Source of the DNA: Acidobacteriota bacterium
GTDB taxonomy: Bacteria > Acidobacteriota > Terriglobia > Bryobacterales > Bryobacteraceae
Assembly: GCA_003223115.1 (NCBI GenBank)
Contig: QHXW01000362.1
Coordinates: 1 to 41,419 of the forward strand
DNA: 41,419 nt
Reading direction: 5' to 3'
Every line of letters starts with the position of its first letter. Positions within the stretch are counted from its first letter, which is position 1. The translations under genes and the position numbers were made by a program. The notes beneath the pieces are model-generated. The model was not told the DNA's origin. It ran no database searches and saw only the letters and a list, made by a program, of their open reading frames with translations. This document shows, piece by piece, positions 7,897 through 36,219 of this stretch.

Positions 7897-9324
7897 TCAC
7901 TGCGGCAGGTTTCGCGCCTGGCTAACGGGCGCGCCCAACATTTGTCCGACATCGTAGAACTGAATGGTTCCATCGAACCGGCCGGCGGCGACAGTTTTGC
8001 CATCGGGCGAAAAACCGAGCGCCAGCACCCAATCAGGTTGATCGAATGTCTTGATCTCGCTCAGGTCGCCGGCTTTAAAAACTTTCATGGTCTTATCCGC
8101 GGCGCTCGAGACCAGCAGCTTGCCGTCCGGTGAATAAGCCAACTGCAATATGGCATCTTCGTGCGCGATCAGCGAATTGATCAGCGTGCCGCTCTTGGGG
8201 CCAAGCGACCATACGCGGATGGTCTTGTCGAGGCCGCCCGCCGCCACGTGCTGGCCAGAAGGATCGAGAGCGATCGCGTTCAGGCCGTCCTGTGGCTCGC
8301 TCAGCGTATAGAGCCGCGCGCCGGTCGCGACGTCCCAGACCTTCACGGTACGGTCCGCGGCGCCCGATACCAGTCGCTTGCCGTCGGGTGTGAAAGCCAG
8401 TGCGTAAACCGCGTCGATGTGGTCCTTAAACGTGCGGATCTCTTTTCCGGTATCCACGTCCCAGAGCTTGATCAGTTTGTCATAGCTCGAAGTGGCCACG
8501 CTTTTTCCGTCAGGTGAAAAGGCGACAGCGTAGATGCAGTCGTAATGACCTTTGATGGTCCGTTGATCCTTACGCGCATCGACATCCCAGATCTTGACCT
8601 CGCCCCAACGCGCGGGCAGGCCCCCGGCCGCCGCCAGATATTTTCCGTCGCGCGAAAAGGCAATCGCCCGGATGGCCTCAGCGTGACCCGGCAGTGTGGC
8701 TAGAGTTTTCCCAGTCGCCGGATCATCCAGCCTCACTTCTTTATAGGTGCCCAGCGCCAGGAGTTTTCCATCGGGACGGTAAGCCAGCGCGCCGATCTGG
8801 GATTTCATAGCCATCTGGGGTTTGATTTCCGGAATTGCGGGTTTGGCAAGACGCGCCGCGAGTTCCTTGGCTTCTTCCGCAGTGGGAGGCTGCGCGCCAG
8901 CGTCAATCCATTTCTGGATAATTTCGATTTCGCCCTCGGCCAGCGGCTTGCCGGTCAGCGGCATCGCGGGCGCGGCTTTCCCCGTGATCATCAGGTACAA
9001 ACGGCTCTCTTCACTTTTACCCGACACGAACACTTTGCCGTGATTGCCGCCTTTTTCCAGACCTTCGTATGTATCGAGGTCGAGGCTCCCCATGCGCACG
9101 TTTGCGGCATGACAGCCGGAGCAATTGGCCTGAAAAATCGGCGCTACATCCTTGGCGAACGACGACGCTTGCTGCGCCTGCGCGACGAACGGCAGAAGGA
9201 GCCCCAGGACAACCTGTAACGCAGGGCTCGAGCCGGCATTCATCAAAGCCCGCGGAAAATTGCAGACAGGCGAGCGCTCATCGCTTGCGTCCCGCCGTGT
9301 TACGTCAACTGTGTATGGTCGCAT
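7897..9324 (-). CDS. Cytochrome c domain-WD40 beta-propeller fusion protein
   Basis: Up to 475 residues. A hydrophobic leader (VVLGLLLPFVAQAQ) ends near residue 51. A class I cytochrome c domain follows, with heme site C68-S-G-C71-H72 (NCSGCHAAN) and distal MPLTG. From about residue 175 there are seven WD40 blades, each with a SPDGK-type turn and IWDV/LWDV/VWDV ends. This fusion is common in Planctomycetes and Acidobacteria beside DUF1549/DUF1553 proteins and suggests a periplasmic electron carrier with a docking platform. ATG 9324 overlaps the stop of the preceding gene (TGATG), which favours it; ATG 9243 would give a cleaner signal peptide. Neither has a strong ribosome site. Confidence 0.9.
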   Translation of the reverse strand: MRPYTVDVTRRDASDERSPVCNFPRALMNAGSSPALQVVLGLLLPFVAQAQQASSFAKDVAPIFQANCSGCHAANVRMGSLDLDTYEGLEKGGNHGKVFVSGKSEESRLYLMITGKAAPAMPLTGKPLAEGEIEIIQKWIDAGAQPPTAEEAKELAARLAKPAIPEIKPQMAMKSQIGALAYRPDGKLLALGTYKEVRLDDPATGKTLATLPGHAEAIRAIAFSRDGKYLAAAGGLPARWGEVKIWDVDARKDQRTIKGHYDCIYAVAFSPDGKSVATSSYDKLIKLWDVDTGKEIRTFKDHIDAVYALAFTPDGKRLVSGAADRTVKVWDVATGARLYTLSEPQDGLNAIALDPSGQHVAAGGLDKTIRVWSLGPKSGTLINSLIAHEDAILQLAYSPDGKLLVSSAADKTMKVFKAGDLSEIKTFDQPDWVLALGFSPDGKTVAAGRFDGTIQFYDVGQMLGAPVSQARNLPQ

Positions 9325-11768
9325 CAGTAATTAAATATGAACTCTTTGCTGGTCAGCAGCGCCCACATCGCATCCTCGAGAGCTTCGCGACGGGTTTCGC
9401 GCTGCGCTTCGAGCGATCCTGTGGCGGTACGGGCCTTCTTCAAAGCGTCCAGCAGCGGTTGCTTCTCGGCCTCGCTCGGATACCGGCTGTACGCCGAAAG
9501 AAACAGATGCTCGATCATCTTTGAATCTGACAGACCGAGTTTCAATGCTAGCGCCGGGTAAGCGTCCGGAGCCATCAGTTTTCTATTTAGCGTCTCGCCG
9601 TTAATCACATGCAGCGCCTGAGCAATACTGGGAGCGCTCGATCGTTCCCCGGCATCGCAAAGAATGCGCGCGGGCCGGCCGAACGACGCCAAGAACTCCG
9701 ATTTCACCTGCGTATCCGGCAATTGCAGCGCTCGCGTTCCGGCCGGGTAACCACCGAATTGCGTGGGCACTCCCGTCACCTGCGACATGGCGTCCAGCAA
9801 AACTTCAGCCGGCAGCCGTTTCACGATGTACTTTGAATAGTACTTGCCGTCATTCTGGTTGGTCGAATTAGCGTTTGCCGACAGTTGATAAGCCGCTGAA
9901 TTCATGATGGTGCGGATCAGGTACTTCACATCGAAGTGATGATCCACGAAATCCTTGCACAGCGCGGCAAGCAATTCTTCGTTGGAAGTCGGATTCGTGG
10001 CCCGCAGGTCGTCGACTGGGTCCACAATGCCCCGGCCCATGAAATTGGCCCATACGCGGTTCACCAATGCGCGCTGGAAATAGATGTTGTCAGGGCTGGT
10101 AAGCCATTTGGCAAACGGCAGCCGGCGATCGATACTTGAATCGAGCGGAATCGATTTGCCATCGAGCGGTGTTGGCGGCAAGGGCTTCAGCAACCGCGGA
10201 TGGTTGATGTTGCCCGACATTTTGGCGAACACCACGATGTCGCCCGCCTCCGCGCCTTCTTTTTCGCCGATGCGCGCGAACAGGTTGGCAAATTCGTAAT
10301 ACTGCTTTTGCGTCCACTTCTCGAGCGGATGATTGTGACACCGCGCGCAGGTGAGGCGCTGCCCCATAAAGGCCTGCGTGGCGTTTTCGGCGATGTCGAT
10401 CGGGTCCTTATGGATGACGTAATAGTTCAACGCGCCGTTCTGCCGCGTGTTGCCGGCCGACGTATAAATGTCGCGTGCGAACTGGTCCCAGGGCTTGTCC
10501 TGTTTCACGCTGTCGCGGATCCAGTCGTAGAACGACCACATGGCCGTGCGCGGCAATTTGCGTGTGGAAACCAGCAGCAAATCGGACCATTTGTACGCCC
10601 AGTAATCGACGAACTCGTCCCGCGCTAAAAGCGAATCGATCACTTTTTCGCGTTTGTTAGCGGATTTGTCCGCAAGAAAATCTTCTACCTCTTCGGAATT
10701 AGGAAGAATACCGGCGGCGTCCAAATAGGCTCGCCGGATGAAGGTGGAATCGTCGGCTACGGGCGACGGTGCCAGATTCAAAGTCTTCCATTTGGCCAGG
10801 ATCAGATCGTCAACGTAATTGTGGCGTGGAAACTTATCGTAAACCGCGGCGTCCACCTTATTGGGATATGGAACGCTCACGCGCGCATACAACACGCGGC
10901 TGGAATACCAAAGCGTGATAGCGGCCTGGCCTTCGCCGTTCATTTTCACGTGGCCCAGATCATCGACCGATGCCACTCCCTCATCGCTCGAACTGAATTT
11001 CACCCAGCGGGTTACGTCACGGTACTGGCCGTCGGAATACTTGGCCTGGACCACCAGTTGCTGCTCGGCGCCGGGAGCCAGACGCGCCGCCGCGGGAAAA
11101 ACTTCCAGTCCGGCCACTTGCAAATCGGTGTCGCGTGGGCGCGGCGTTCCCTCGGCGATCCAACCTGAAAGAATCTTGTACTCGAGCGAGTCGGTGCCGA
11201 AACGCCGCCCGCCACCGTGGGGCACGGCCATGGTCGGTTTCAACAGCATCAGGCTGTGCGCCGGTTCCATGGGGTCGACGCGGCGGCCAATCGCCTGGCG
11301 CGTTAGCGTGTCGTAGTCCAGGTCGGGATCGTAGCCACGCAGCGTCATCTTGAAACCGCTCTTGCCGGACAATGCGCCGTGACACGCACCCTGGTTGCAG
11401 CCGACCTTCGTCATCACCGGCATCACGTCGTTCCGAAAGCTCCAGGTGTATGGCGTCTGCGAGTTCTTTACGCGCACCGTCACAGTGGCCGTTTGAGCTT
11501 TGGCAGTTGCCGTGATCGTCGCCTGGCCGTCGCCGATGGGGCGCACTTCGCCATTGGCATCCACGATAGCGACCTTTGGGTTCGATGAACTCCACTGCGC
11601 CTGGCGCGTCCAGTCTTCCTGGTGATCGCCGACGGTGGCTTCAGCTAGCAAATCCTGGCGGGATTCGGGACCATTGAGATCGATGCTGTTGGGCAGAATA
11701 GCGAGCGCTTCACCGTACACCGAAAGCGCGGTTACCAGGAACCCAAAAATGACCTGCCGTAGCTTCAT
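9324..11768 (-). CDS. DUF1549/DUF1553 cytochrome-like protein with Ig-like (BIG2) domains
   Basis: An 814-residue exported protein (signal peptide VIFGFLVTALSVYGEALA). Order: BIG2 Ig-like domain (about 25-100), a heme-like site C124-x4-C129-H130 (VGCNQGACHGA) that is not the canonical CxxCH, a second BIG2-like domain (about 220-300), DUF1549, a canonical heme motif C474-A-R-C477-H478 (CARCHNHPLEKW), and DUF1553 to the C terminus (RALVNRVWANFMGRG, ILCDAGERSS). Such proteins are typical of Planctomycetes, Verrucomicrobia and Solibacter-type acidobacteria, are almost always adjacent to DUF1501, and are suspected to act in extracellular redox reactions on organic matter. Its ATG overlaps the DUF2283 stop (ATGA). 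The enzymatic reaction is unknown. Confidence 0.92.
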   Translation of the reverse strand: MKLRQVIFGFLVTALSVYGEALAILPNSIDLNGPESRQDLLAEATVGDHQEDWTRQAQWSSSNPKVAIVDANGEVRPIGDGQATITATAKAQTATVTVRVKNSQTPYTWSFRNDVMPVMTKVGCNQGACHGALSGKSGFKMTLRGYDPDLDYDTLTRQAIGRRVDPMEPAHSLMLLKPTMAVPHGGGRRFGTDSLEYKILSGWIAEGTPRPRDTDLQVAGLEVFPAAARLAPGAEQQLVVQAKYSDGQYRDVTRWVKFSSSDEGVASVDDLGHVKMNGEGQAAITLWYSSRVLYARVSVPYPNKVDAAVYDKFPRHNYVDDLILAKWKTLNLAPSPVADDSTFIRRAYLDAAGILPNSEEVEDFLADKSANKREKVIDSLLARDEFVDYWAYKWSDLLLVSTRKLPRTAMWSFYDWIRDSVKQDKPWDQFARDIYTSAGNTRQNGALNYYVIHKDPIDIAENATQAFMGQRLTCARCHNHPLEKWTQKQYYEFANLFARIGEKEGAEAGDIVVFAKMSGNINHPRLLKPLPPTPLDGKSIPLDSSIDRRLPFAKWLTSPDNIYFQRALVNRVWANFMGRGIVDPVDDLRATNPTSNEELLAALCKDFVDHHFDVKYLIRTIMNSAAYQLSANANSTNQNDGKYYSKYIVKRLPAEVLLDAMSQVTGVPTQFGGYPAGTRALQLPDTQVKSEFLASFGRPARILCDAGERSSAPSIAQALHVINGETLNRKLMAPDAYPALALKLGLSDSKMIEHLFLSAYSRYPSEAEKQPLLDALKKARTATGSLEAQRETRREALEDAMWALLTSKEFIFNY

Positions 11769-12016
11769 CGCTTATCTCCCAAGACCGCGTGTGTCGAGGG
11801 CCACTCCGCTTTGTTGAGGACTTCTGCAGGCAGGATTGACCTGGCTCCCAGCACCTCGATCCGCAGCAAACGTCCCGATTCATCGAAGTCCAGATTGAAT
11901 ACGCCTTTTCCCCCGCCCGGTTCGCAGGGATGTGTTTCACGCACTGCCCCGGCGCCGATGTGATCGATAACGTAAATATAGGCGGCGTCTACTGACGCAT
12001 CATATGTCATCCTCAT
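11765..12016 (-). CDS. DUF2283 domain protein, possible antitoxin partner of DUF4258
   Basis: An 83-residue protein. YDASVDAAYIYV followed by GVFNLDFDESGRLLRIEVLGA is the DUF2283 signature (a small beta-rich domain, usual length 70-90). DUF2283 genes commonly lie directly beside DUF4258 or other RelE-like genes in toxin-antitoxin-like arrangements. Here its ATG overlaps the DUF4258 stop (ATGA) and its own stop overlaps the DUF1553 start (ATGA), so all three are translationally coupled. The C-terminal ~20 residues beyond the domain (KAEWPSTHAVLGDKR) are not family-typical. Antitoxin function is inferred from context only. Confidence 0.8.
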   Translation of the reverse strand: MRMTYDASVDAAYIYVIDHIGAGAVRETHPCEPGGGKGVFNLDFDESGRLLRIEVLGARSILPAEVLNKAEWPSTHAVLGDKR

Positions 12017-12258
12017 ACGATTTTCTTCCTGAGACCTTCGATATGTTGCTCACTTACACAAAGAATGACGGTGGTCACCGTATCGCCGGCAACGCTCACA
12101 ATAACTCTCCTTTGATCGTCATAGTAGCCTTGCTTTTGGGATCCGCCGTGGACGTAACGGAATGGAATCGCATTTTCAAGTATCTGTAGAGCTAACTCTC
12201 TACTCACTCCTCGCTCTTGCATGCGCAGCAGCGAATGGCCGGAAAAACGGATTTTCAA
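12013..12258 (-). CDS. DUF4258 domain protein, possible RelE-like toxin
   Basis: An 81-residue protein. SGHSLLRMQERGVSRE is the N-terminal DUF4258 signature, followed by YDDQRRVIVSVAGDTVTTVIL, a beta-hairpin core like that of RelE/BECR-fold nucleases. The start codon is TTG at 12258: no ATG or GTG is available before the conserved FSGHSLLRM segment. The gene sits 24 bases after the DUF1501 stop and overlaps DUF2283 by 4 bases. A purine-rich AGGGTGG lies about 19 bases upstream, too far for strong initiation, which with TTG suggests low expression. A toxin role is suggested by fold and pairing, not shown. Confidence 0.78.
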   Translation of the reverse strand: MKIRFSGHSLLRMQERGVSRELALQILENAIPFRYVHGGSQKQGYYDDQRRVIVSVAGDTVTTVILCVSEQHIEGLRKKIV

Positions 12259-12282
12259 TGCCGATTTAGTTCGATAACCACC

Positions 12283-13659
12283 CTACACGAATAGCTCTTT
12301 AATGGGCTCGGTTCCGCGCTCCACCAGCGGAATCGGGCGCCCCTGGGCCCCCGGAAGTTCGAGGCCGGTGGAAATACCCAGGCCGTGATAGATGGTCGCG
12401 GCGATCTCACCAGGAGTAGTAGGCCGGTCCTTCGGAGCACCACCGATGTCATCGGAGGCCCCCACCACCTGTCCGCCCTTGAGCGGACCCCCTCCCATAA
12501 TGACGGTCCAGCACTGCGGCCAGTGGTCGCGACCGCCGGCAGGATTGATTTTAGGCGTGCGGCCAAACTCGCCCATGGCCAGCACCATGGTGTTGGAGAG
12601 CAAACGCCTGTCCTGCAGATCTTCCAAAAGTGAACTGAATGCGTTGTCGAACATCGGTCCGACCAGATCGCGGTAGCAACTAATGGGGCTGAATGGCTTC
12701 GATCCGTGTATGTCCCAGGTGATCTCGTCGAACACAGTTTCAAACATGTTCACCGTTACGAATCGGACTCCAGCCTCGATCAGGCGCCGTGCCAGCAGGC
12801 AGCTTTGACCGAACCGGTTCAAGCCGTATTTCTGGCGCACGGCCTCTGGTTCCTTAGCCAGTTCGAATGCCTCGCGCGCTTTTTGCGAGGACATCAGCGT
12901 GTAAGCCTGATGGAAGGTCGCATCCAGCAGCCGCGCATCCTGCGATGTCTCGAATTTACTGACCGAGCGGTCGATCATCTCGCGCCAATTCCGCCGGCGG
13001 TCAACCCGCAGGGCCGTCAGATAATCGGGCGGCAACATGTCCGGCACCTTGAAATTGGGATCGGAGGGATCGGCATTCAACACGAACGGGTCGTACATTT
13101 TTCCCAAGAAGCCGGCAGTCTGGCCATGGGGCATATTGCCGCCCGTGTTTCCGATAGGGTGCGGCATCAGGACGTGCGGCGGTACGTCGCCCTTGGGTCC
13201 CTTGATATTGCCCAGAACGCAGCCGTAATGCGGATATTCGATGCCGCCTTGGAACAGCCGCCCGGTCTGCATCATCTGGTGGCCGGTGTCGTGTACGGCG
13301 GCGGCGGTATGGTACACGCTGCGGATCAGCGCATATTTGTCGGCGTGCTTGGCCATCCGCGGGAAATTTTCCGAGATTTCGATCCCACTGACGTTGGTTT
13401 TGATCGGCTTGTAAGGGCCGTGGATTTCCGCCGGCGCATGGGGCTTCATGTCCCAGGTGTCGAGTTGAGACGGACCGCCCACCAGCATGAGCATGATGCA
13501 GTTAATATCTTTTGAGTTATCGACGGCGCCGAGGGCCTTGAGATCGAACAGTTGAGTCAGCCCCAACCCCAGCATCGAGAGCGAGCCGGCGTGCAGGAAA
13601 TCTCGCCGCCTCCAGCCATCACAGAATTTAACCGGCTTGTCGGCATCAAGGCGAAACAT
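12283..13659 (-). CDS. DUF1501 family Tat-exported protein
   Basis: A 458-residue protein of full family length. The N terminus carries a twin-arginine signal (RRRDFLHAGS, residues 17-26) followed by a hydrophobic stretch, so it is exported folded. Family landmarks: LVGGPSQLDTWDMKP, HDTGHQMMQTGR, ETVFDEITWD, MGEFGRTP and GRDHWPQCWTVIMGGG. DUF1501 proteins are distant alkaline-phosphatase/sulfatase-fold proteins of unknown activity found beside DUF1549/DUF1553. It is the first gene of the eight-gene minus-strand operon; AGGAG lies 9 bases before the ATG. Upstream, TAAAAT with a weak TTGCGG 18 bases before it is a possible promoter. In this operon the usual neighbour DUF1553 is displaced by the DUF4258-DUF2283 pair. 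Confidence 0.93.
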   Translation of the reverse strand: MFRLDADKPVKFCDGWRRRDFLHAGSLSMLGLGLTQLFDLKALGAVDNSKDINCIMLMLVGGPSQLDTWDMKPHAPAEIHGPYKPIKTNVSGIEISENFPRMAKHADKYALIRSVYHTAAAVHDTGHQMMQTGRLFQGGIEYPHYGCVLGNIKGPKGDVPPHVLMPHPIGNTGGNMPHGQTAGFLGKMYDPFVLNADPSDPNFKVPDMLPPDYLTALRVDRRRNWREMIDRSVSKFETSQDARLLDATFHQAYTLMSSQKAREAFELAKEPEAVRQKYGLNRFGQSCLLARRLIEAGVRFVTVNMFETVFDEITWDIHGSKPFSPISCYRDLVGPMFDNAFSSLLEDLQDRRLLSNTMVLAMGEFGRTPKINPAGGRDHWPQCWTVIMGGGPLKGGQVVGASDDIGGAPKDRPTTPGEIAATIYHGLGISTGLELPGAQGRPIPLVERGTEPIKELFV

Positions 13660-16927: not shown

Positions 16928-17737
16928 TCATGGAGCGGCGGGACTCAGGGGCCTACATCTGTATGTTGCAAATTGCGCGTCGCTTGAACCGGCAGAGCTT
17001 CCGTAGTTCCAGTCTATGGTCAACAATTCATAGCCATTCTCTTCAAGTAAGGTCATCATCTGTTTTGGAGTAGAACAACGAATCCGCTCAACCGTGCTCA
17101 TAGTTCTAAGTATTTTGAAGGATCGGTCTAATAGACGATAGTGCCGGCGAATTAAGTTTACAGCTGGATCTAGGCCTCCTTCGAGCATTTTCCATCGCTG
17201 CAGGATTCGACCATCAGCGATCGATCGGGTGTAATCCCAAATGGGCTCACCGTACCTTATCGTCGGATTCGGGATGAACGCGTCGATAACGCAATGTCCG
17301 TCACGGCAGATCTGTCGATGTATGTACGACAATAAGCCCCGCTGTTCTGATGGCTCTACAAAATAAGTAAAAAATGAGTAAGGAAGCAGAATCGTAGAAA
17401 ACTTTCCGCGTAATCCCCCCTGTCGAACGTCCATTTGTGCGATCTGTAGACGGCTCTGCTCGGAACGCGTGCAGGTCCGTTTACAGTTTTCCTGAAGCGC
17501 CGACAACATTCGGCCCGAAATGTCCACGGCTGTTACCGTCAGCCCGGCTCGTAACAATGGCAAAGTGACGCGTCCTGTCCCACAACCAAGTTCGAGGATT
17601 CGGCCTCGATTTTCGAGAGCCCGCTCCACGTAGTAGGACACATCAGCGAATCGCATGTTGCGGCCCATATCATCGTCATAAATGTCCGCAATTTGGTCGT
17701 AGCAGGTTCTACTGCAGGTCTCCGGCGATGTGCCCAT
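16928..17737 (-). CDS. Class I SAM-dependent methyltransferase
   Basis: A 269-residue protein from ATG 17737. Motif I is ELGCGTGRV (residues 49-57), motif II ends in VD72 (VTAVDISGRML), and DVRQGGLRGKFSTILLPYSFF (parts DVRQ, STILLPYS) gives motif III and beta4. It begins with YDQIADIYDDD, as many Methyltransf_25-type enzymes do. The start at 17737 has AAGGG 4 bases upstream and lies inside the end of the glycosyltransferase gene (29-base overlap), so it is coupled to it. The longer frame to 17875 is judged spurious. It likely methylates a sugar or glycan made by this cluster; that target is inferred from context. Confidence 0.85.
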   Translation of the reverse strand: MGTSPETCSRTCYDQIADIYDDDMGRNMRFADVSYYVERALENRGRILELGCGTGRVTLPLLRAGLTVTAVDISGRMLSALQENCKRTCTRSEQSRLQIAQMDVRQGGLRGKFSTILLPYSFFTYFVEPSEQRGLLSYIHRQICRDGHCVIDAFIPNPTIRYGEPIWDYTRSIADGRILQRWKMLEGGLDPAVNLIRRHYRLLDRSFKILRTMSTVERIRCSTPKQMMTLLEENGYELLTIDWNYGSSAGSSDAQFATYRCRPLSPAAP

Positions 17738-19946
17738 GCGTCCCTTTGTAAAATGTCTGCTGGCTAAGCTGATGGTTGTAAAAGTCACCTTGAATTCGGG
17801 CTGACTTAGCCCAACTGAGTTGGCAGTGGATCCAGGCGGCGGGCTTCTCGAGCTGTAGTCGTGCGGCTTCGTCACGCAAGAATAACTGAAGAAGCTCTAA
17901 GAAATTATCTACAGTTGTAACTTGTATTAAAGCAGGTAAATTAAGGTCAGCGAAGCCTCTGGCTCCCTGTTGCGTCGAGATACATAGGCGCCCGGACGCA
18001 ATAGACTCTATCAACTTGACACTGGAACCGCCAACCCCATACACAGGATTAATCGTCAACGCGCAGTTTTCGAGCCAGGCATACACATCGGTGATTGGAC
18101 CGTGCACTCGAACCCCAGTTTGATCAAAGCAATTCATTTGGGACGCCAACTCTGGAGCGCCCGGTCCTCCGAGTATGTCCAGATGCACGTCAGGCACCGC
18201 GTGAACTAGTTTCGGATAGACCTTCTCCAAGAACTCCTGTATACCCATAAAATTGGGCGGATATCGAAAAGGTCCCACAAAAAGGATACTGTGCTTGCCC
18301 AAAGATGGACCACAGACTCGGCTCCTCTCTTCGACACCATTCGGCACCACCCTGGTGCTCGGATGATTTACCAGTTCAGCATCCTCTCGAGTACATGTAA
18401 TTACGCCAGTAAAGCGGTTGACCAGCCGTCGCTCAAAACGATCCGCCACAACATCGCCGGACCCATCAAAGAGGACGTCATGCAAGGTGATGAACCACGG
18501 CGCTCCGTTGCGCTTAGCCTTAATCAGACCGGCCAGTTCAACATGCTCGAGCTGAACTATGTTCGGTCGATAACATGCCACAATTCTGTCAAGCTCGCAT
18601 TTCAATAAACTATGCGAGTGAACCTGGATCCGTGAGATGCGGTTTTGTGAGTCCTCACCCCGCTCCGCAGGTCGGCCTCCAACCAGGTGAACTGCGACTG
18701 GACCCTTGAAATCACGCACCGCATCGTTGGCGTACAGCGCGTCCTCATCTCCGAGAAAGATAATCTCGTGCTCTAACGCCAAATGTTGGATCAGTCCGGT
18801 TATACGCTTCGCGCCGCCATGGAGCGGTGGACAGACTGCGTAAGGAGCGACAATCAAAAGTCTCGGTCGCACGGTCGGCTCAGCAATGGGCCGTAGATAA
18901 AATTTCTTTCTGAGGTACTGCAATGATGCAGGCCGCTGAGGCGCCCGAGCGTCCCGACAGAGCGCACAAAGCACGGACATTGCAAACCGGACAGAGCAGA
19001 GCCCAACCTGACTCTGGCGAACCTGTGTACCCACCTGCTGAATCAGCAGCCTGGGTTCGGTATGTGTGAGATCATTGCGCAGGTCACAGACCAATGCGTT
19101 TCTCCGAAAGATTCGGTCGATCTCTGCGATCTCATAAAGCTGTACAACTGTTGCGCGATGGATGTGTGTCGCCCTCGAACGAGGGCAGAATAGTACTTCA
19201 TACCCAAGGCGCCAGGCACGTACACCCCATTCCACATCTTCCCAGTAACAAGGGTGATAGGGATCGGACCGATTCATCACAAGTAAGAGAAGCTGACGAC
19301 GGTAAAGAGAACTCCCGCCACCCGCATACAAATGACCTCGAACCGTTTCCGAATCTTCAGGGCGAACATCAACAGCTTCGACGCCGCCAGGAGTGATCCG
19401 AAAATCTGTCCATCCTGTTTCTTCCCGCCGGCGCGTCGAATCGGCAAAAAAGATTTGCGTTGCGATTGCAAAAACATGCGCTGCGCGCCATTTGACAACC
19501 TCTTGCAGTGCATCGGCGTCCAAAGTCATGTCACTGTTCAACAGATAGACCCAATCAAATGTTGCCGAGCGAACCCCCATTGACACTGCACCGCCAAAAC
19601 CGAGTGGCTTCGTGTTGTGAAGCCATTTGACATTCCGAAATTGATCCTTGCAGCCGGCATACTTGTCTAATGAAGTTCCGTTGACTACTACGATCACTTC
19701 AACGGGCTCCGAGATCTTATCCGCTGCCCGGTATGTGGCCGCTAAACATGCCCCTAGTAAGTGCGGAGTGCAACATTCCGGAATCACGACGCTTATCCCG
19801 GGTCGCCATTTGCCAGCGTGTGTTTGCTTTTTGGGAAAGCGAGTCAAAACACGAGTAATCAGCCGCCCCAAAACGAGCGCACCTAACAATGGCAGAAATC
19901 GCAAGAGCGATACAGTCTCTGGGTTATTAGGGTCTTTATGTTTCAC
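17709..19946 (-). CDS. Bifunctional glycosyltransferase: GT2 domain fused to GT4-like domain
   Basis: A 745-residue protein with two GT domains. Residues ~50-300 are a GT2 (GT-A) domain: ISVVIPECC, EVIVVVNGT, NSDMTLD (DxD-like, D139), then the acceptor-side motif CYWEDVEWGVRAW and ATHIHRA. Residues ~370-740 form a GT-B domain of the GT4 type: LLIVAPYAVCPPLHGGAKR, PWFITLHDVLF, ILFVGPFRYPPNFMG, and GVGGSSVKLIESIASG (donor-binding region, with E in LIES). A ~65-residue linker with RKKFYLRP joins them. A hydrophobic N-terminal segment (LLRFLPLLGALVLG) may tether it to the membrane. The TGA/ATG with the radical SAM gene overlap by 4 bases. Two sugars may be added in sequence by one polypeptide; the identity of both is unknown. 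Confidence 0.88.
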   Translation of the reverse strand: MKHKDPNNPETVSLLRFLPLLGALVLGRLITRVLTRFPKKQTHAGKWRPGISVVIPECCTPHLLGACLAATYRAADKISEPVEVIVVVNGTSLDKYAGCKDQFRNVKWLHNTKPLGFGGAVSMGVRSATFDWVYLLNSDMTLDADALQEVVKWRAAHVFAIATQIFFADSTRRREETGWTDFRITPGGVEAVDVRPEDSETVRGHLYAGGGSSLYRRQLLLLVMNRSDPYHPCYWEDVEWGVRAWRLGYEVLFCPRSRATHIHRATVVQLYEIAEIDRIFRRNALVCDLRNDLTHTEPRLLIQQVGTQVRQSQVGLCSVRFAMSVLCALCRDARAPQRPASLQYLRKKFYLRPIAEPTVRPRLLIVAPYAVCPPLHGGAKRITGLIQHLALEHEIIFLGDEDALYANDAVRDFKGPVAVHLVGGRPAERGEDSQNRISRIQVHSHSLLKCELDRIVACYRPNIVQLEHVELAGLIKAKRNGAPWFITLHDVLFDGSGDVVADRFERRLVNRFTGVITCTREDAELVNHPSTRVVPNGVEERSRVCGPSLGKHSILFVGPFRYPPNFMGIQEFLEKVYPKLVHAVPDVHLDILGGPGAPELASQMNCFDQTGVRVHGPITDVYAWLENCALTINPVYGVGGSSVKLIESIASGRLCISTQQGARGFADLNLPALIQVTTVDNFLELLQLFLRDEAARLQLEKPAAWIHCQLSWAKSARIQGDFYNHQLSQQTFYKGTHGHIAGDLQ

Positions 19947-21391
19947 TTCACTTCGATGTGAGACAGCGCAAAACTTAGCTCGCGGACATCATCAAAACCG
20001 TAAGCGCTGGGCCGGTACGGACGATCTGTTGCGAACCGTATATAGAAGAGTGGTGCTGTCTCAGGTAAGCGCACTGACAGCTCAAAGCCCCGCTGCTCGC
20101 TGCTATGATTTGCAATGGTCGCGACCGTTCTATCGTTGCACCAAATGGACAACCTGACGCCATCTGAATCAGGGAAAGAAGGAAGGATACCCTTGATATA
20201 TAAATGCCGTTTGCCGGTTCCTCCGGCCAGCACAGCGGCACTGCGCTGCTTACTCCAGAGAATTTCGCCTTCCGTCTGATACCAACCTCCGAGTAGCTGC
20301 GAATTGTTGCCATCCTTCGCAGAAATACTCGATGCAAGGGCCGAAGGGTAATACGCCAATTTATAAGGACATGTCTGACATGGCGTGATTTGACCTACTT
20401 GATAACGATCTCGAAAGGTCTGGTACGCTTCACCATGCCAGATCGACGCCAACGGCTGCATATTCAGATTTCCGAGCACCATTTGGTCCTGCACTTCGCA
20501 CGGCACCACGTCTCCGTTCGCCAAAATGTGTACTGTTTCCCAAGGATTCTGGTCGCATGTGGAAATCCATGCTCCGTTCGGCAGCGGTCCCGTATGGCGC
20601 CGCGGACGGCTGTCCAAAGGACAGTCCGGTTGCAACTCCGCAGTCGAACTGCTGATCTCCACGCCCGGGAAATTTCGGACTGCCTCCCGTATAGCGTCTG
20701 CTAAATCGCGTTTAAATGTGGGCTGCAGCCGATTCCCTACCAGCTCCAGTCCGAATTGCGCGGGAATGCCAGCTCGACGGATCACTGGATGCACTGAGAT
20801 ATTCTTGATTCCTAAGGTTTGAGCGTACTCCGCCACTGAGTTCAGCTGTCCGAGGTTCTCATGCATGGCAACAAATGCGAAATCCGCAATTGGTTTCTGA
20901 ACGCGAAGTCGGCGCTGGCACTCAATGAGTGTCCTCAGCTTGGCCCGCATGACCTCGAGACTACTGAAACGATAGACGCGCGAAAACTGCTCGTCATCCA
21001 TGGTATGAAGTGAAACCGTAAGGCGATCCAGGCCGCTCGTGACTAATGTGGGGATTCGCTCCTCTGGATACGAAGCCAATGCCGTCACGAGTTCCGTAAA
21101 TGCTCCTGTCTGATGCGCAAGCCGAATTGCGTCTAAGAGAGAGGGGTGAGATGTGGACTCTCCGGAGTAATTTAACCTGATTATTTCGGGCTGGCGAAGT
21201 TGATCGATAATAGAAGAATATAAAGAGAAATTCATGTGTTCGCCAGATCCTCGTACAGTCTTCCGTGAGCAGAATATGCAATCGAATGGACACTTTGATG
21301 TCAGCTCGATCCAAACGATCTTGGGCGCATCAGTAGTCAACATTTCGCTGGGACGATGAGATCGCGCCGTCTCCAACGTGGGTTTCGTCAT
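19943..21391 (-). CDS. Radical SAM/SPASM protein with C-terminal beta-sandwich domain
   Basis: A 482-residue protein. The radical SAM cluster ligands are C34, C38 and C41 (CPFDCIFC), followed by LNYSGEST (the GGE-like SAM site). A SPASM/Twitch region carries C279, C298 (ANGDVVPCEV, then LGNLN and IWHG) and C338/C341 (PCQTCPYK), so one or two auxiliary Fe-S clusters are expected. Residues ~365-482 form a separate beta-rich domain (GWYQTEGEILWSKQRSA, then RHLYIKG and FELSVRLPE) resembling one attached to bacterial glycosyltransferases and polysaccharide-cluster proteins. It lies 3 bases after the toroid gene and overlaps the GT fusion by 4 bases. The likely job is radical modification of a sugar, lipid-linked glycan or small peptide; substrate unknown. 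Confidence 0.88.
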   Translation of the reverse strand: MTKPTLETARSHRPSEMLTTDAPKIVWIELTSKCPFDCIFCSRKTVRGSGEHMNFSLYSSIIDQLRQPEIIRLNYSGESTSHPSLLDAIRLAHQTGAFTELVTALASYPEERIPTLVTSGLDRLTVSLHTMDDEQFSRVYRFSSLEVMRAKLRTLIECQRRLRVQKPIADFAFVAMHENLGQLNSVAEYAQTLGIKNISVHPVIRRAGIPAQFGLELVGNRLQPTFKRDLADAIREAVRNFPGVEISSSTAELQPDCPLDSRPRRHTGPLPNGAWISTCDQNPWETVHILANGDVVPCEVQDQMVLGNLNMQPLASIWHGEAYQTFRDRYQVGQITPCQTCPYKLAYYPSALASSISAKDGNNSQLLGGWYQTEGEILWSKQRSAAVLAGGTGKRHLYIKGILPSFPDSDGVRLSIWCNDRTVATIANHSSEQRGFELSVRLPETAPLFYIRFATDRPYRPSAYGFDDVRELSFALSHIEVK

Positions 21392-21394
21392 GGA

Positions 21395-22525
21395 TCACAC
21401 CAGAAATCGAATCATCTTAGGGTCAAAAGAGTCATCTAATCGCTGATAGAGTCGTAATGCCTGTACGGCAAACATCGTACTCCAAGTGTTCGCGTGTAGC
21501 AGGTGGCCCTGTGAGTCTCGGTGGAAATACACAGCGCCGTCGCCACAACAACTGATCAGAGAATTGGCTAGCGTTTTCTCAAGACGTGTCACGCCTCCCA
21601 CGTAAGCTACCTCATGTAAAAGGCAAGCCACTCGCAAACTCTGTGCGACGACATCCGACCGATGTTGAACACCCTTGCGGAAAAATTTCGCAACGGCTCG
21701 ATCATCGAAGATAGAAGCCAATACGCTGCCGGCGTGCTGTTGTAATTTCGAATCCTGTAAGTGAATACCAAGCAAGAGGAGACCCTCGATGAAATATAGG
21801 GTTGGATGCAGGTCTTTGAAACTGAATGTCGTGGGCGCATACGACCTCTACCGGCCAACAATTTCTTCAGCAGCAGTCTGAAGCCGGCTCGGCACAATCC
21901 CGGAAAGTTCCAGAATCGGAACCGCCGCTTTTAGTTGATAGGGCCCGCTCTTGACTGACCAGGTTTCCGGCTGTGGGCCATCAGTGATTGCGACACAAGC
22001 CTTCAGCAAGCCGTCCGTGTCCACGAAGTCCAACAAGTGTGCGCAGAGGCATGCTCGAAGAGACTGGAATGTTCGCGTATCGATACAATCAGCTACGCAT
22101 ACCAACCCCCTGAGCATCATTGCCAAATCAAACGAAAACCGAAACCTATTGCGCCAGTCTCTTTGATTGCATCCATCGAGATATAAACGCGTGTAGGGGT
22201 AGGCGCTGGAGTTCCAGTTTCGCTCGAGCCATCGAACTGCCGACCGAATACGGGGTATCACTCGGCTTTCTTCAAAGCCGAAAGCCCGTAAGTAGGCCAG
22301 AAAAATAAGATAGTAGCCCGTGATTTCCGGATATATGAACCTCGTGTCTTGAAAAGAGTCACTCCAGCCAATCACGCCTCCGGTATGGCGTCCTTTTCGC
22401 ATTTGTACGTCCCCGGATAGGAGCCACTCTATCATCCGATCCACGATCGCTGGATCACGACTAGCGGACCTGGGAGTAACTCCCAACGTGATCGGCGAAT
22501 GCATGCGGCTTAAGGGAGTACGCAT
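21395..22525 (-). pseudogene. Alpha/alpha-toroid (prenyltransferase/squalene-cyclase-like fold) protein, split by in-frame TAG
   Basis: Two open segments, 22525-21848 and the part ending at 21395, lie in the same frame and are separated only by TAG 21850-21848; coding continues at once with YAPTTFSFKDLHPTLYFIEG. The joined ~376 residues show alpha/alpha-toroid features: VIGWSD, YPEITGYYLIFLAYL, WSVKSGPYQLKAAVPILEL and DGAVYFHRDSQG, then TWSTMFAVQALRLY. Such toroids occur in terpene cyclases, prenyltransferases and polysaccharide-acting enzymes; here polysaccharide context makes the last likely. The N terminus may also be shifted: an ATG at 22559 opens MNSSVTAAITYYAYSLKPHA in another frame, which looks more protein-like than MRTPLSRMHSP. 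TAG is used as a normal stop elsewhere here, so recoding is unlikely; a nonsense mutation or sequence error is favoured. Confidence 0.75.
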
Positions 22526-22590
22526 AGTACGTAATCGCAGCGGTCACACTCGAGTTCATATTTTACGACAGTGGCCGGCTTCAGACTGGA

Positions 22591-23733
22591 TCAGGAACGC
22601 TCTTCGTTGAAGAAGGAAAGAATCGCTCGGGAGATCCGCTCGCTCGCGCGTCCATCGCCATACGGGTTGTGAGCACACGACATTTGCTGATATGCCGCGG
22701 GGGAGTCAAGCAGGCCGTGAGCCTCTCGCAAGATGCAATCCACATCGGTTCCTACCAGACGTACGGTCCCGGCGTCGACGGCTTCCGAGCGTTCCGTTTT
22801 GTCACGCAAAACCAGCACGGGTTTGCCAAGAGCAGGTGCTTCCTCCTGAATGCCCCCAGAATCACTCATAACAAAAAAGGCGCGACGCATGAGGTCAATG
22901 AACGGCACGTACTCCAGCGGCTCTGCCAGCAGGATATTGGGGCGGTTGGAGAGGTGACGACAGACCGGCTTATGTGCGTTGGGGTTGGGATGAACCGGGA
23001 ATACGATCTGAATGTCGTCACGTTCGGCGAGCCGGGACAGAGCCGCACAAATTCGCTCGAACCCCTCGCCAAAGCTTTCCCGCCGATGCGCCGTAACAAC
23101 GATCAATTTCTTGGAATCATCAAGCCAGGTCCCGAGCGCATTCTCGCCGTCAGCGGTCCAGCGACCCTGCTCGAGCCCGTTGCGCACGTAGAGCACTGCG
23201 TCGATGCCCGAATTTCCTGTCACGGCGATTTTTCGGGAGTCAACGCCTTCAGCACACAGGTTACGGGCGGCTTCTTGCGTTGCGGCGAAGTGCAGGGAGG
23301 CGAGCCGCGTGGTCACTACGCGATTCATTTCCTCGGGGAAGGGCTGGCGAAGATCGCCAGTTCGCAACCCCGCTTCGACATGCCCCACTGGCACGTTTTC
23401 ATAAAAGGCGCCCAGCGCGCCGCATACAGTTGTCGTCGTGTCCCCCTGTACCAGCACCAATTGCGGTCTCTCGGAATTCAGCACGTCTTCAAGTGCGGCA
23501 AGAATGCGCGCGCTCGATTGGAGCAGACTTTGGCCTGACCGCATGAGGTCAAGATCGTAGTTGGGACGAATGTCGAATGTGGTCAAAACCTGGTCGAGAA
23601 GACGCCGGTGCTGGGCGGTAACGGCCACGCGGACCGAGAATTCGGACGGCCGGGATCGCATGTGCAGCACAACAGGGCTAAGCTTGATGGCCTCCGGCCG
23701 GGTACCGAACAGAAACAGGATCTTTAGCGGCAT
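22591..23733 (-). CDS. wecB: UDP-N-acetylglucosamine 2-epimerase (non-hydrolysing)
   Basis: A 380-residue GT-B-fold enzyme that converts UDP-GlcNAc to UDP-ManNAc. All landmarks are present: LFGTRPEAIKLSPV at the N terminus, VQGDTTTT, HVEAGLRTGD, FPEEMNR, TAHRRESFGEGF and SDSGGIQEEAPALGKPVL. Length is normal for the family. It is the first gene of the five-gene minus-strand glycan island; 31-65 bases separate it from the toroid gene, depending on that gene's start. It should feed ManNAc (or a derived uronic acid) to the glycan made by the downstream transferases. Confidence 0.96.
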   Translation of the reverse strand: MPLKILFLFGTRPEAIKLSPVVLHMRSRPSEFSVRVAVTAQHRRLLDQVLTTFDIRPNYDLDLMRSGQSLLQSSARILAALEDVLNSERPQLVLVQGDTTTTVCGALGAFYENVPVGHVEAGLRTGDLRQPFPEEMNRVVTTRLASLHFAATQEAARNLCAEGVDSRKIAVTGNSGIDAVLYVRNGLEQGRWTADGENALGTWLDDSKKLIVVTAHRRESFGEGFERICAALSRLAERDDIQIVFPVHPNPNAHKPVCRHLSNRPNILLAEPLEYVPFIDLMRRAFFVMSDSGGIQEEAPALGKPVLVLRDKTERSEAVDAGTVRLVGTDVDCILREAHGLLDSPAAYQQMSCAHNPYGDGRASERISRAILSFFNEERS

Positions 23734-32859: not shown

Positions 32860-34059
32860 TCACATCTTAATTCTTACCCCATTCTTACCCGGCCTTTGAT
32901 TCTTGTTCACAATGGAGACTTCGTCCCCAGGCGACGATCTCGATGGGCGCGCCGCTTCGAGCAATACATCCAGCGTCAATCGCGCCGTGGTAGTCCATGA
33001 AAATAAAGCCGCGCGCTCGGGGCCTGCCGCGGTAAGCTTCGTACGCAAAGCCTCGTCTGATGTGATGCGCACAAGCGCTTCGAGCATCTCGGCGTCACTC
33101 GACGGGTCAAACAGCAGAGCTGCCTCGCCTGCCATGCTGGCCAGAGGCTCAATCTCCGTGCAGGCTGTGGGCACACCCGCCGCCAGGGCTTCGAGCACCG
33201 GCAAGCCGAAACCCTCAAAATTCGATGGATAGACGAACGCCCACGCGCGCTCGAACAACGTGAACAACTTGTCGCGGTCAATCCAGCCGGTGAATTCCAC
33301 GGCTTCCGCCAGCCCCAGCGCGACCCGAAGCTGCTCTAGCTTTTCGGTGTCAAATCCGCGAACACCCGTGATTACCAACCGGTATTCGGGCCGCGTGCGC
33401 CGGAACTCCGTAAATACTCGCAGCAGCCGATCCAGATTCTTGTGCGGATGTAGAGTGGAAGCGGTCAACAGGAACGGCTCCGGCGGGGATGCAGGGCGCG
33501 CTCGCGCAATTTCTGAAAATCTCGGCGTTACGCCCTCCGGCACCACGCGAATTTTCTCTCGCGGCAGGCGATAATAATTCTCGAGATCCGCCCGCGTGGC
33601 TTCGGAGACCGCGATCAGCAAGGTCGCCAGTTGCGCCGACCAGAACAGCAATGTGCGCCAGAACGGCAGGTCGAACCAGCGGAAATATTCCGGGTGCCGC
33701 TTGTGCTGCAAGTCATGAAACACCGTGACCTGAGGCCGGCCGCAAATCAGCGGGGCGGTAAAACCGGGATTGAGCAGCACGTCGATGTCGCGGGTCGCCA
33801 CGGATAACGGCAGTACGGTCTGTTCCCAGATGATGCGCGCCGGCCGGAATGCCGCGTTCACACGTTGGCGGACTGTGGTGAAATTCGCCTGCTTGGGCGC
33901 CAGATCAGCACCGGTCTCAAGATTTGTGAAAACGTAGTATTGATTCGTGCGGTCGATCTCTGCCAGCGCTGCCAGCAGATGACGCAGGTAGATTTCCGTT
34001 CCGCCCACGCCGCCAGGGATCAGATAAAGAGCGTTGACGCCGATGCGCAGCGGTCGCAT
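32860..34059 (-). CDS. Glycosyltransferase family 4 protein
   Basis: A 399-residue GT-B enzyme. N-terminal acceptor domain: IGVNALYLIPGGVGGTEIYLRHLL (parts GVGGTEIYL); VFHDLQHKRHPEYF and LIAVSEATRADL in the middle. C-terminal donor domain: STLHPHKNLDRLL, VEFTGWIDRDKLF and the E-x7-E element in YPSNFEGFGLPVLEALA. It fits the mannosyl/rhamnosyl-type GT4 of bacterial surface glycans. Its start lies 2 bases after the stop of the TPR membrane protein gene, so it is the last gene of the minus-strand glycan cluster. Donor and acceptor sugars are not predictable. Confidence 0.93.
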   Translation of the reverse strand: MRPLRIGVNALYLIPGGVGGTEIYLRHLLAALAEIDRTNQYYVFTNLETGADLAPKQANFTTVRQRVNAAFRPARIIWEQTVLPLSVATRDIDVLLNPGFTAPLICGRPQVTVFHDLQHKRHPEYFRWFDLPFWRTLLFWSAQLATLLIAVSEATRADLENYYRLPREKIRVVPEGVTPRFSEIARARPASPPEPFLLTASTLHPHKNLDRLLRVFTEFRRTRPEYRLVITGVRGFDTEKLEQLRVALGLAEAVEFTGWIDRDKLFTLFERAWAFVYPSNFEGFGLPVLEALAAGVPTACTEIEPLASMAGEAALLFDPSSDAEMLEALVRITSDEALRTKLTAAGPERAALFSWTTTARLTLDVLLEAARPSRSSPGDEVSIVNKNQRPGKNGVRIKM

Positions 34060-34061
34060 TA

Positions 34062-35858
34062 TCAGGGACGGCTTCGCAGGATTGCCTCCGCGTTCACCAG
34101 CGCCTGTGCCGCTCTCTGATTGTTCGGATTGATCGCCAGCCCTTGCCGAAAATCCTTGATGGCTCCCTGCAGATCGCCCATGTTTTGACGCACGCCCCCA
34201 CGGTACACGTACGTCATTTCAAAATTCGGATTGAACTGCTCCGCCCGCGCCAGCGCCTCCAGCGCCTCCGCATTTCTCCCTTGCTTGCCGTACACCATTC
34301 CGATCTGGGAATACACGTGCGCCGTGGGATTCATGGCGGCCGCCTGTTTCAATTTGGTCAGCGCTTGATCGGGCTGATTCAACTGGTCGTACGCCAGCCC
34401 CCAGTCAATGAACAGCCGGTCATCGGGCTTCTGGAGCTGAGCAACCTTTTCGTATTGTGGAAGGACTTTCGCGTAATCGCCCCGGTCATAGTAAGCTTGC
34501 GCCAGCTGAAAATGCGCGCGGGCGTTGCCGGGTGATTTCGCGACCGTGTCCTCCCATAACACCACCGCATCGGTCCAGACAACATTGCGGCGATTCGTAG
34601 CAATGGCCGCCAGCAATAGCACCGCGGCCATGGCTGCCATCCACTTCGGTTGCCTGACGTCAACACGCCGCAGACATTCGAGCGTAATCAACAGCAGGCC
34701 GATCATCGAGAGGTATAGCCTTCGTTCCGCTACCGGATCCTTGATTGGAATGAATGATGACGTTGGTGCCATCAGAATCAGAAAGGTAAAAAATCCATAC
34801 GCTGCCAGTGGATACTGCCTGCGGTAGTAAAATGCCGCAGCCACCGCCGCCACGATTGCGACCAACCCGAAAATTGCGCCGTGCTCCAGCAGGCTGTGGG
34901 AAATCGGAAAATCGTAGTCGATGTCCAGACCCGCCGGAAACAAAAAGAGCCGTATGTATACCCAGAACGCGCGGCACTCGGTGATGAAATATTGATACCA
35001 GGTGAGGTCCTTGATGGCGAATCCCGCGGTTTCCGCCCCACGCAGTTTCCTCAGCAGGAACATTCCCAACGCGGCCGCGCTAATCACCACAGGCGCATAG
35101 AGCCGCCAGTTTCGCCGTATGCCCTGAAATGAAAACGGCGGATTCCAGAAATAATCCGTGAGCAACAGCAATGCCGGGAGAACCACCGTGTGCTCTTTGG
35201 TCAGCGCGGCTGCAGCGAATAGAGCCAGCACTCCAGCCGCTCTCACCCAGGAAATTGCCGTCGAGCGCCTGTAAAGAAAAACAGCGAACGCCGTGAAGAA
35301 AAACAGAACACTCAGATTTTCTGAGCGGCTGGCCACGTAGCCTACGGCTTCCGAGTTCACCGGATGAAACAAAAACAGCGCGCCCGCAAACCCCGCCAGA
35401 ATGTCCCGCCGCCTGCGCTCCACACCGGCAAAATCCAAAAGCTTGAGCGTGATCAGGAAAATGAGAACCGCGTTTGCCGCGTGAAACAAGACATTGAACG
35501 CGTGATAAGAACCCGTCTCCAGACCGGAAATCCGATAGTTGATCCAGTAGCTGAACATCAGCAGGGGCCGTACTCCGGCCAGCCAGGCCCTCAGCGCATC
35601 CAGCGGAAAGTTCGGGACACTGAACGGCAGGTAATTATCGTCGAACAGGAACGGGCCATTTAGCGAAGGCCCATAAACTTCGAAGGCCGCAATCAGCATT
35701 CCCGCTAATGCCAGCGCGTACGGCCAGTATTTCTTGCGCGGCGGCTCGGCTGCCCGCACGGCTTTCGCTCTGCTCCGCAATCCGGCCGCTCGAGCTCCAC
35801 CTGCGCTCCTGGCACTAGCCGGCGCCGTCTTTCGAGACTCCTGCCCTTTTGTTTTCAT
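34062..35858 (-). CDS. Multi-pass membrane protein with C-terminal TPRs, TMTC-like (putative protein O-glycosyltransferase)
   Basis: A 598-residue protein. A basic N-terminal tail precedes roughly ten hydrophobic helices (about 46-410), then tetratricopeptide repeats to the end (ARAHFQLAQAYYDRGDYAKVLPQYEKV in parts, AHVYSQIGMVYGKQGRNAEAL, FRQGLAINPNNQRAA). The lumenal-loop motif FDDNYLP near the first helix has the acidic pair seen in GT39/PMT-type GT-C enzymes, and LFHPVNSEAVGYVASRSE is the conserved second loop of TMTC1-4-like proteins. Animal TMTC proteins are O-mannosyltransferases; in bacteria the role is inferred. Neighbouring polyprenyl-phosphate sugar synthase and DUF2304 genes fit a lipid-linked donor. 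Confidence 0.85.
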   Translation of the reverse strand: MKTKGQESRKTAPASARSAGGARAAGLRSRAKAVRAAEPPRKKYWPYALALAGMLIAAFEVYGPSLNGPFLFDDNYLPFSVPNFPLDALRAWLAGVRPLLMFSYWINYRISGLETGSYHAFNVLFHAANAVLIFLITLKLLDFAGVERRRRDILAGFAGALFLFHPVNSEAVGYVASRSENLSVLFFFTAFAVFLYRRSTAISWVRAAGVLALFAAAALTKEHTVVLPALLLLTDYFWNPPFSFQGIRRNWRLYAPVVISAAALGMFLLRKLRGAETAGFAIKDLTWYQYFITECRAFWVYIRLFLFPAGLDIDYDFPISHSLLEHGAIFGLVAIVAAVAAAFYYRRQYPLAAYGFFTFLILMAPTSSFIPIKDPVAERRLYLSMIGLLLITLECLRRVDVRQPKWMAAMAAVLLLAAIATNRRNVVWTDAVVLWEDTVAKSPGNARAHFQLAQAYYDRGDYAKVLPQYEKVAQLQKPDDRLFIDWGLAYDQLNQPDQALTKLKQAAAMNPTAHVYSQIGMVYGKQGRNAEALEALARAEQFNPNFEMTYVYRGGVRQNMGDLQGAIKDFRQGLAINPNNQRAAQALVNAEAILRSRP

Positions 35859-35867
35859 GCAAAATTA

Positions 35868-36218: not shown

Positions 36219-36219
36219 T

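Follow-up and report, generated by a model that had tools for sequence, protein, structure and literature searches.

Most known cases of radical S-adenosylmethionine (SAM) enzymes acting on sugars come from antibiotic biosynthesis, and in the mycofactocin system the radical SAM protein MftC is paired with a family 2 glycosyltransferase (GT2), MftF. As set out in a section of PMC6231123, SPASM domains, which hold two auxiliary clusters, are defined by the seven-cysteine motif CX9-15GX4C...CX2CX5CX3C...C, and the Twitch domain is a shortened form that can ligate a single auxiliary cluster, in BtrN through four cysteines. A second point of reference is the mycobacterial methylmannose polysaccharide (MMP), which an excerpt of PMC9883506 describes as the product of a four-gene cluster encoding a glycosyltransferase (ManT), two methyltransferases (MeT1 and pMeT3) and the endomannosidase MmpH. 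Here we describe a five-gene group in a contig of an Acidobacteriota bacterium of the family Bryobacteraceae (QHXW01000362.1; 41,419 bases, hereafter the window; assembly of 9.14 Mb in 594 contigs), in which a radical SAM enzyme is encoded together with WecB, an (alpha/alpha)6 toroid protein, a two-domain glycosyltransferase and a methyltransferase. We read this group, with a probability of about 0.63, as a horizontally moving glycan-tailoring cassette whose radical SAM enzyme acts on a sugar. In the open-licence PubMed Central (PMC) papers searched, no description of this gene combination or of a radical SAM-GT2 fusion was found.

The five genes lie on the minus strand at positions 16928-23733, flanked by coaD (PF01467) on one side and by an M20 peptidase gene on the other. 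In order of transcription, they are wecB, coding for a non-hydrolysing UDP-N-acetylglucosamine 2-epimerase (22591..23733); the toroid gene (21395..22525); the radical SAM gene (19943..21391); a gene combining GT2 and family 4 (GT4) domains within one glycosyltransferase (17709..19946); and a gene for a class I SAM-dependent methyltransferase (16928..17737). The GTG start of the glycosyltransferase gene overlaps the radical SAM stop, with 4 nt shared by both genes, and gaps of 3 nt and 65 nt separate the toroid gene from the radical SAM gene and wecB from the toroid gene, respectively; the five genes look like one operon. The radical SAM, glycosyltransferase and methyltransferase frames are intact. 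For the last of these, the list of open reading frames (ORFs) gave a start at 17875, but the ATG at 17737 fits the relatives better and is probably the actual start. The original prediction, made from the letters of the window, had described five close-packed minus-strand genes between coaD and an M20 peptidase, and their order, strand and flanks were confirmed, with no gap above 65 nt. Its assignments of the GT2-GT4 fusion and the methyltransferase were borne out by domain matches, and that of wecB by membership of TIGR00236 (448 bits against a cut-off of 210).

The radical SAM protein was detected in seven of 61 genomes, its own included, at E 1e-20, and a profile search of the class recovered it from 11 of 399 genomes. 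A scan of contigs yielded 37 related loci in Acidobacteriota, Pseudomonadota (Lysobacterales, Dyella, Cellvibrio and Thiotrichaceae), Planctomycetota and Verrucomicrobiota; these were drawn by two short peptide patterns, which under-sample distant relatives. Near-duplicates occur among them (L054/L055/L070, L062/L063 and L039/L042), and L037, L047, L048, L052, L060 and L062 apparently lie on the same contigs as six matches of the 61-genome search. Domains were counted with profiles built for this analysis, up to 5 kb from the radical SAM gene. A GT2 was present in 33 of the 37 loci and a GT2 or GT4 in 34, and in 18 loci the radical SAM enzyme and the GT2 are fused in a single open frame. The loci without a glycosyltransferase are L066 and L072, where the contig end cuts off the radical SAM gene, and L051, with none detected in its 14 kb. 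The toroid was found in 11 of the 37 loci, wecB in eight (all of which also have the toroid) and the methyltransferase type of the window in five.

All five genes are found together in four of the 37 loci, from a Planctomycetota genome (L038, with wecB and the toroid gene placed divergently), Dyella marensis (L056), Cellvibrio (L058) and a member of Lysobacterales (L064), the last of these showing exactly the gene order of the window. In addition, radical SAM, GT2 and GT4 domains form one protein of 1225 residues behind a toroid gene in L036, the toroid gene adjoins the radical SAM gene in a Verrucomicrobiota contig, and genome G088 carries wecB, radical SAM, GT2-GT4 and toroid genes together on one 6.6 kb contig. 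The co-localisation that the original prediction had proposed to search for therefore recurs in Acidobacteriota, Pseudomonadota and Planctomycetota and, because it does so in distant genomes, the grouping is taken to be more than chance. Two further variants were also observed. In a proteobacterial genome (L043:8261-11404) the fusion is in reverse order, with the GT2 before the radical SAM domain, and in a Thiotrichaceae copy (L068:8423-11335) the radical SAM sequence is spread over several frames and the GT2 domain was not detected, the locus being either a degraded cassette or poor sequence.

Cysteine residues were compared in 32 of the 38 radical SAM sequences (L050, L055, L066, L068, L070 and L072 were dropped). 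Seven cysteines are invariant in all 32, C34, C38 and C41 for the SAM cluster and C279, C298, C338 and C341 for an auxiliary cluster, the latter spaced as CX18C, 39-40 residues and CX2C; the window enzyme keeps all seven. None of the 32 aligned relatives has CX2CX5CX3C, the latter half of that motif in SPASM enzymes, although the Pfam SPASM model nonetheless matches the window protein. Judging from these alignments, the window enzyme is a Twitch radical SAM enzyme, with predicted ligands for one auxiliary cluster, and not a full SPASM enzyme. The earlier label of radical SAM/SPASM protein is thus kept in its first half and replaced in its second.

When the radical SAM profile was compared with solved structures, BtrN was the best match (E 2.6e-12 and 4.5e-12), followed by PqqE (6.9e-8) and the sugar enzyme DesII (1.2e-5); anSME and BlsE matched weakly (E 0.026 for BlsE). 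The structural model of the window enzyme (mean predicted local distance difference test score, pLDDT, of 91.1) matches SuiB, SkfB, DesII, BlsE, PqqE, MoaA, viperin and BtrN. Residues ~378-481 form a C-terminal beta-sandwich in the model, for which the Foldseek rows held a few carbohydrate-binding or carbohydrate-active proteins, with TM-scores of only ~0.25. The predicted fold alone cannot separate sugar from peptide substrates, and a section of PMC6231123 states that similarity networks do not readily predict fold or function within this radical SAM subfamily. The sugar reading was reached because of the GT2 fusion and the similarity to BtrN, together with the methyltransferase, reductase and wecB partners.

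Further partners were found by comparing neighbouring ORFs of at least 90 amino acids, taken from a simple ORF picker. A TylF-type O-methyltransferase (PF05711; by Pfam in L046 and L047, by similarity in the rest) is encoded behind the radical SAM-GT2 protein in L041, L046, L047, L054, L055, L057 and L070, and also in L121. About 0.2-0.7 kb beyond it, the same eight loci (seven of the 37, plus L121) carry an RMNT/CmcI rhamnosyl-type O-methyltransferase (PF04989; by Pfam in L041, L046, L047, L057 and L121, by similarity in the rest). A Methyltransf_24 protein is encoded between the two types, on the opposite strand, in L046 and L047, and frames similar to it are present in L041, L054, L055 and L057; L054 and L055 are closely related to L070, whose frames are broken. 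In addition, an aldo/keto reductase gene directly precedes the radical SAM gene in L037:8864-9913, L066:1178-2155 and L122:7719-8753, and precedes wecB in L119:1-513. These reductases form one close family, assigned by PF00248 for L037 and L066 and by similarity for L122 and L119, and their position beside the cassette fits a keto-sugar intermediate. Other neighbour families present in at least three loci were seen only among close relatives.

The toroid gene of the window is split by an in-frame TAG at 21848-21850 (minus strand) into an N-terminal part (21848-22525) and a C-terminal part (21395-21847), whereas the other 39 aligned toroids have an amino acid in that column. Toroid searches found no second copy in the genome, and the toroid step has probably been lost there, barring a sequence error at the stop or its readthrough. 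The fold was predicted from the intact relative in L037, whose model (mean pLDDT 89.8, predicted TM-score 0.91, 12 rows) is an (alpha/alpha)6 barrel. The toroid named in the original prediction is thus upheld as a predicted fold and corrected as a gene, since it is not one open frame and the stop had been missed. In Foldseek, the nearest structures were sugar epimerases of the N-acylglucosamine 2-epimerase (AGE) type (E 8e-7 to 3vw5), and VIA-align gave the GH15 glucoamylase 3eqa (Z 26.6 over 324 residues), sugar epimerases (Z ~25), MmpH (7qsj, Z 23.9 over 298 residues) and unsaturated glucuronyl hydrolases (Z ~23). No Pfam family scored over its cut-off for the window halves or for four relatives, two of which gave sub-cut-off Pec_lyase or Glyco_hydro_76 rows, and the comparison of the sequence with the PDB gave a single chance match of 26 residues. 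The toroid family is unnamed over cut-off by the libraries scanned, the other enzyme types of the cassette being known.

Forty toroids were aligned: 11 from cassettes, including that of the window, and 29 (of 30 loci offered) from a divergent group referred to as core toroids; the L058 toroid, in which an ambiguous base divides the sequence between two frames, was excluded. Residues E55, D121, K188, H229, Y233, E236, R278, D280, Q284 and R287 are identical in 11/11 cassette and 29/29 core toroids. Since the core toroids were chosen by a pattern requiring motifs like E55-G58-Y59 and Q284-R287, their conservation at those motifs is partly by construction, a caveat that does not touch the 11 cassette toroids or positions D121, K188, H229, Y233, E236, R278 and D280. 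H229 is the single invariant histidine, and E55, D121, E236 and D280 are the invariant acids. Several of the invariant residues are placed by model and alignment at the starts of alternate barrel helices, which suggests an enzyme pocket rather than a scaffold; outside the stop, the window toroid keeps these pocket residues.

The core toroids (e.g. L027-L033) were observed in their own right in the Acidobacteriota family of the window, where at least 101 genomes were sampled and 83 gave toroid matches (the cassette toroid of the window counted). In seven of nine loci read the core toroid adjoins a GT2 or GT2-GT4 protein, and it needs no radical SAM enzyme; several have an extra N-terminal region of ~190-290 residues.

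Regarding the remaining proteins, the N-terminus of the window glycosyltransferase is hydrophobic (19-residue mean of 1.88), with values of 1.98 in L044, 1.5 in L042 and L037 and lower values in most other loci. The window methyltransferase shows similarity to a daptide methyltransferase of ribosomally synthesised and post-translationally modified peptides (RiPPs) at 78 bits, under the cut-off of 175. No wecC was found in the cassette of the window, and nucleotide-sugar dehydrogenases were present in 13/13 genomes searched, so that oxidation of UDP-N-acetylmannosamine (UDP-ManNAc) is neither supported nor excluded. A single-sequence wecB search had no match at E 1e-30 in two of 13 genomes (G422 and G431). 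Since the profile search had detected a wecB in L064, which belongs to G422, single-sequence searches miss divergent copies.

The composition of the cassette was then compared with that of its surroundings. G+C content per kilobase is 0.50-0.54 across 17001-23000, in comparison with 0.53-0.62 in the rest of the window. The methyltransferase, glycosyltransferase, radical SAM and toroid genes have G+C values of 0.510-0.525 (0.525-0.547 at third codon positions) and depart from the codon use of the flanks by 0.129-0.179 per codon. On the other hand, wecB has values of 0.590 and 0.656, respectively, with 22 measured flank genes at G+C 0.571-0.614, and codon-use departures of wecB and flank genes are 0.026-0.111, a single short gene (0.257) excepted. 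Low G+C and deviant codon use make the four genes, and not wecB, look foreign. The window wecB shares 73% identity with the copy of a congener and 50-66% with copies in 22 further genomes (matches at E 1e-100 in 24 of 41 relatives, its own genome included), whereas its identity to the cassette wecB copies of other loci is 34-49%; two more distant wecB-like genes of the same genome are 34% and 36% identical. By these comparisons, wecB belongs to the lineage of the host family, and its arrival may have been separate from that of the other four genes.

A tree was built from 34 of the 38 radical SAM sequences (without L066, L068, L070 and L072). The window copy groups with the Planctomycetota copy (support 82/56), and both stand beside nine proteobacterial copies (92/93), which places the window copy with most of the gammaproteobacterial ones. 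The Bryobacterales fusions form clades with full support that do not include it. On this tree, the five-gene loci require four changes, which suggests that the arrangement was gained or lost repeatedly. Together, tree and G+C favour a horizontal arrival of the four genes, a copy of host lineage taking the place that wecB has in other cassettes. The A/T-richness and horizontal transfer put forward in the original prediction accordingly hold for four genes, which the G+C and codon-use check did not refute, and not for wecB, whose composition is that of the flanks. An empty site could not be demonstrated, as the M20 peptidase found in a congener (72% identity) lies on a 13.6 kb contig without other window genes. 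Carriage and origin were also considered: a scan of viral contigs with the radical SAM alignment gave no relative, no match at E 1e-30 was found in 72,556 plasmid records, and PADLOC returned as defence rows only the radical SAM protein (viperin, 17-34 bits) and the methyltransferase (mad2, 49 bits). In the five-gene Lysobacterales locus, a group II intron reverse transcriptase, a mobile element, lies ~0.2 kb behind the methyltransferase gene (L064:14359-15840).

From gene content, recurrence, fusions, cysteines and predicted folds we infer a joint pathway, with its substrate, order of steps and product, as follows. WecB would supply UDP-ManNAc, and an acceptor would be extended with sugars by the GT2 and GT4 domains. 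With its beta-sandwich and the attached GT2 keeping it on the glycan, the radical SAM enzyme would abstract a hydrogen from a sugar ring carbon, and its single auxiliary cluster might take the second electron as in BtrN, yielding a keto-sugar. The ketone could be left or re-reduced to an inverted centre, giving an epimer, a reduction that the aldo/keto reductase beside related loci may carry out. Methyltransferases would block hydroxyls, the class I type in the window and the TylF and RMNT/CmcI types in other genomes, and the toroid, with its conserved polar pocket, may trim or epimerise the sugar chain. That the radical SAM reaction is specifically a dehydrogenation or an epimerisation is a tentative proposal, somewhat doubtful as it stands. 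We give somewhat less than even odds to the most novel proposal, that the cassette represents a kind of glycan machinery not described before. In it, a Twitch radical SAM enzyme, joined physically to a GT2, would oxidise or epimerise a sugar by radical chemistry while the glycan is assembled; reduction by the aldo/keto reductase and O-methylation by several methyltransferase families would follow, a new toroid family would act on the chain, and the whole set would move between phyla as a cassette.

Several observations weigh against a sugar-acting, horizontally moving cassette. The toroid is interrupted in the window and its wecB is of the host-lineage type; the aldo/keto reductase is absent from the cassette of the window (best relative in the genome, 40% identical), and its L122 copy has an in-frame stop. 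Toroid and wecB are both lacking within 5 kb in 17 of the 18 fused loci. The 92/93 support of the tree grouping does not reach the starred level, and the five-gene Cellvibrio locus has its radical SAM enzyme on the other side of the tree. Furthermore, structural Z scores of ~24 to SuiB and SkfB are above those to BtrN (16.8-18.1), and Twitch enzymes include the peptide-acting SkfB, according to a section of PMC6231123. As SuiB and SkfB are peptide modifiers, their top Z scores speak for a RiPP-like system combining radical SAM modification of a peptide with glycosylation, a reading also served by the daptide likeness of the methyltransferase (78 vs 175 bits) and by the mention, in a passage of PMC7470986, of glycosyltransferases fused to RiPP recognition elements (RREs) and of radical SAM genes in possible RiPP clusters. 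We regard it as very improbable. The genes in the cassette of the window overlap or are at most 65 nt apart, too close for a precursor gene between them, although precursors may be encoded elsewhere; no precursor-like neighbour recurred among the ORFs compared, those of 90 amino acids or more, and Pfam and NCBIfam gave no peptide-binding domain.

A soluble methylated oligo- or polysaccharide system resembling that of MMP would keep the glycan setting and change the roles: the glycosyltransferase would elongate, the methyltransferase cap, the toroid act as a hydrolase that trims and recycles primers, and the radical SAM enzyme add an extra decoration. The gene content of the MMP cluster, the placing of MmpH among the toroid fold matches and the lack of flippase, polymerase or ligase genes in the part of the flanks scanned are consistent with such a system. 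It is nevertheless unlikely, as the radical SAM-GT2 linkage (fusion in 18/37 loci) is tighter than the toroid linkage (11/37), and the hydrophobic N-terminus of the window glycosyltransferase, not general among loci, hints at membrane work. The TylF and CmcI families include methyltransferases of antibiotic pathways, which together with the BtrN match and a compact, sporadic cassette (11 of 399 genomes) would suit a small aminosugar natural product of the aminoglycoside kind, where the BtrN-like enzyme would, as in the butirosin pathway, oxidise a cyclitol or aminosugar; among the neighbours compared, genes for transporters, resistance or cyclitols were not seen to recur, and we consider this quite improbable. 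Finally, the window copy may be a decaying remnant, with the toroid a pseudogene and the rest on its way out. The TAG in the only toroid found in the genome points to decay, and the three intact frames, the seven cysteines and the pocket residues kept outside the stop point away from it, a base error being possible in an assembly of 594 contigs. Such decay, which we judge somewhat unlikely, concerns this copy and is compatible with the glycan-tailoring cassette.

Elsewhere in the window, a second small group with a GT4, a TPR protein and a GT2 was observed at 32860-37970, at normal G+C. At 9324-13659, DUF1549/DUF1553 and DUF1501 proteins are encoded near each other, the former with Ig-like repeats; this pair is common in Planctomycetes and Acidobacteria.

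If the glycan-tailoring cassette is real, bacterial glycans can carry radical-made sugars in ordinary environmental bacteria, and a ready set of natural radical SAM-GT2 fusions, with Dyella marensis as a named carrier, becomes available for identifying substrate and product. It would also give the unannotated toroid family, widespread in the Acidobacteriota family of the window, a role that can be tested.

In comparison with described systems, the window enzyme shares the radical SAM core and the four-cysteine Twitch domain with BtrN, the 2-deoxy-scyllo-inosamine dehydrogenase of butirosin, its best sequence match in the PDB; it differs in the extra C-terminal beta-sandwich, in the frequent GT2 fusion of its relatives and in surroundings that suit a glycan and not an aminocyclitol. 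The toroid is predicted to share the (alpha/alpha)6 fold of the AGE superfamily (N-acylglucosamine and cellobiose 2-epimerases), whose mechanism uses a histidine pair, but it has no Pfam match over cut-off and one invariant histidine; to GH15 glucoamylase and other (alpha/alpha)6 glycosidases it is alike in fold, without a sequence match. Unlike mycofactocin, the cassette has no precursor peptide gene inside it, and its glycosyltransferase scores 24 bits with the MftF model (cut-off 280). The GT4 half resembles the XrtA/PEP-CTERM glycosyltransferase TIGR03087 (56 bits) and is not a member (cut-off 317), and the RRE-glycosyltransferase fusions, as a passage of PMC7470986 presents them, are distinct from the radical SAM-GT2 fusion. 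The mycobacterial MMP cluster offers an analogous association of glycosyltransferase, methyltransferase and toroid in a small cluster but, as described in the excerpt of PMC9883506, its four genes include neither a radical SAM gene nor wecB. Altogether, the nearest working analogue is the MMP cluster, in the terms of that excerpt, and the nearest enzyme analogue is BtrN, neither comparison being a claim of membership.

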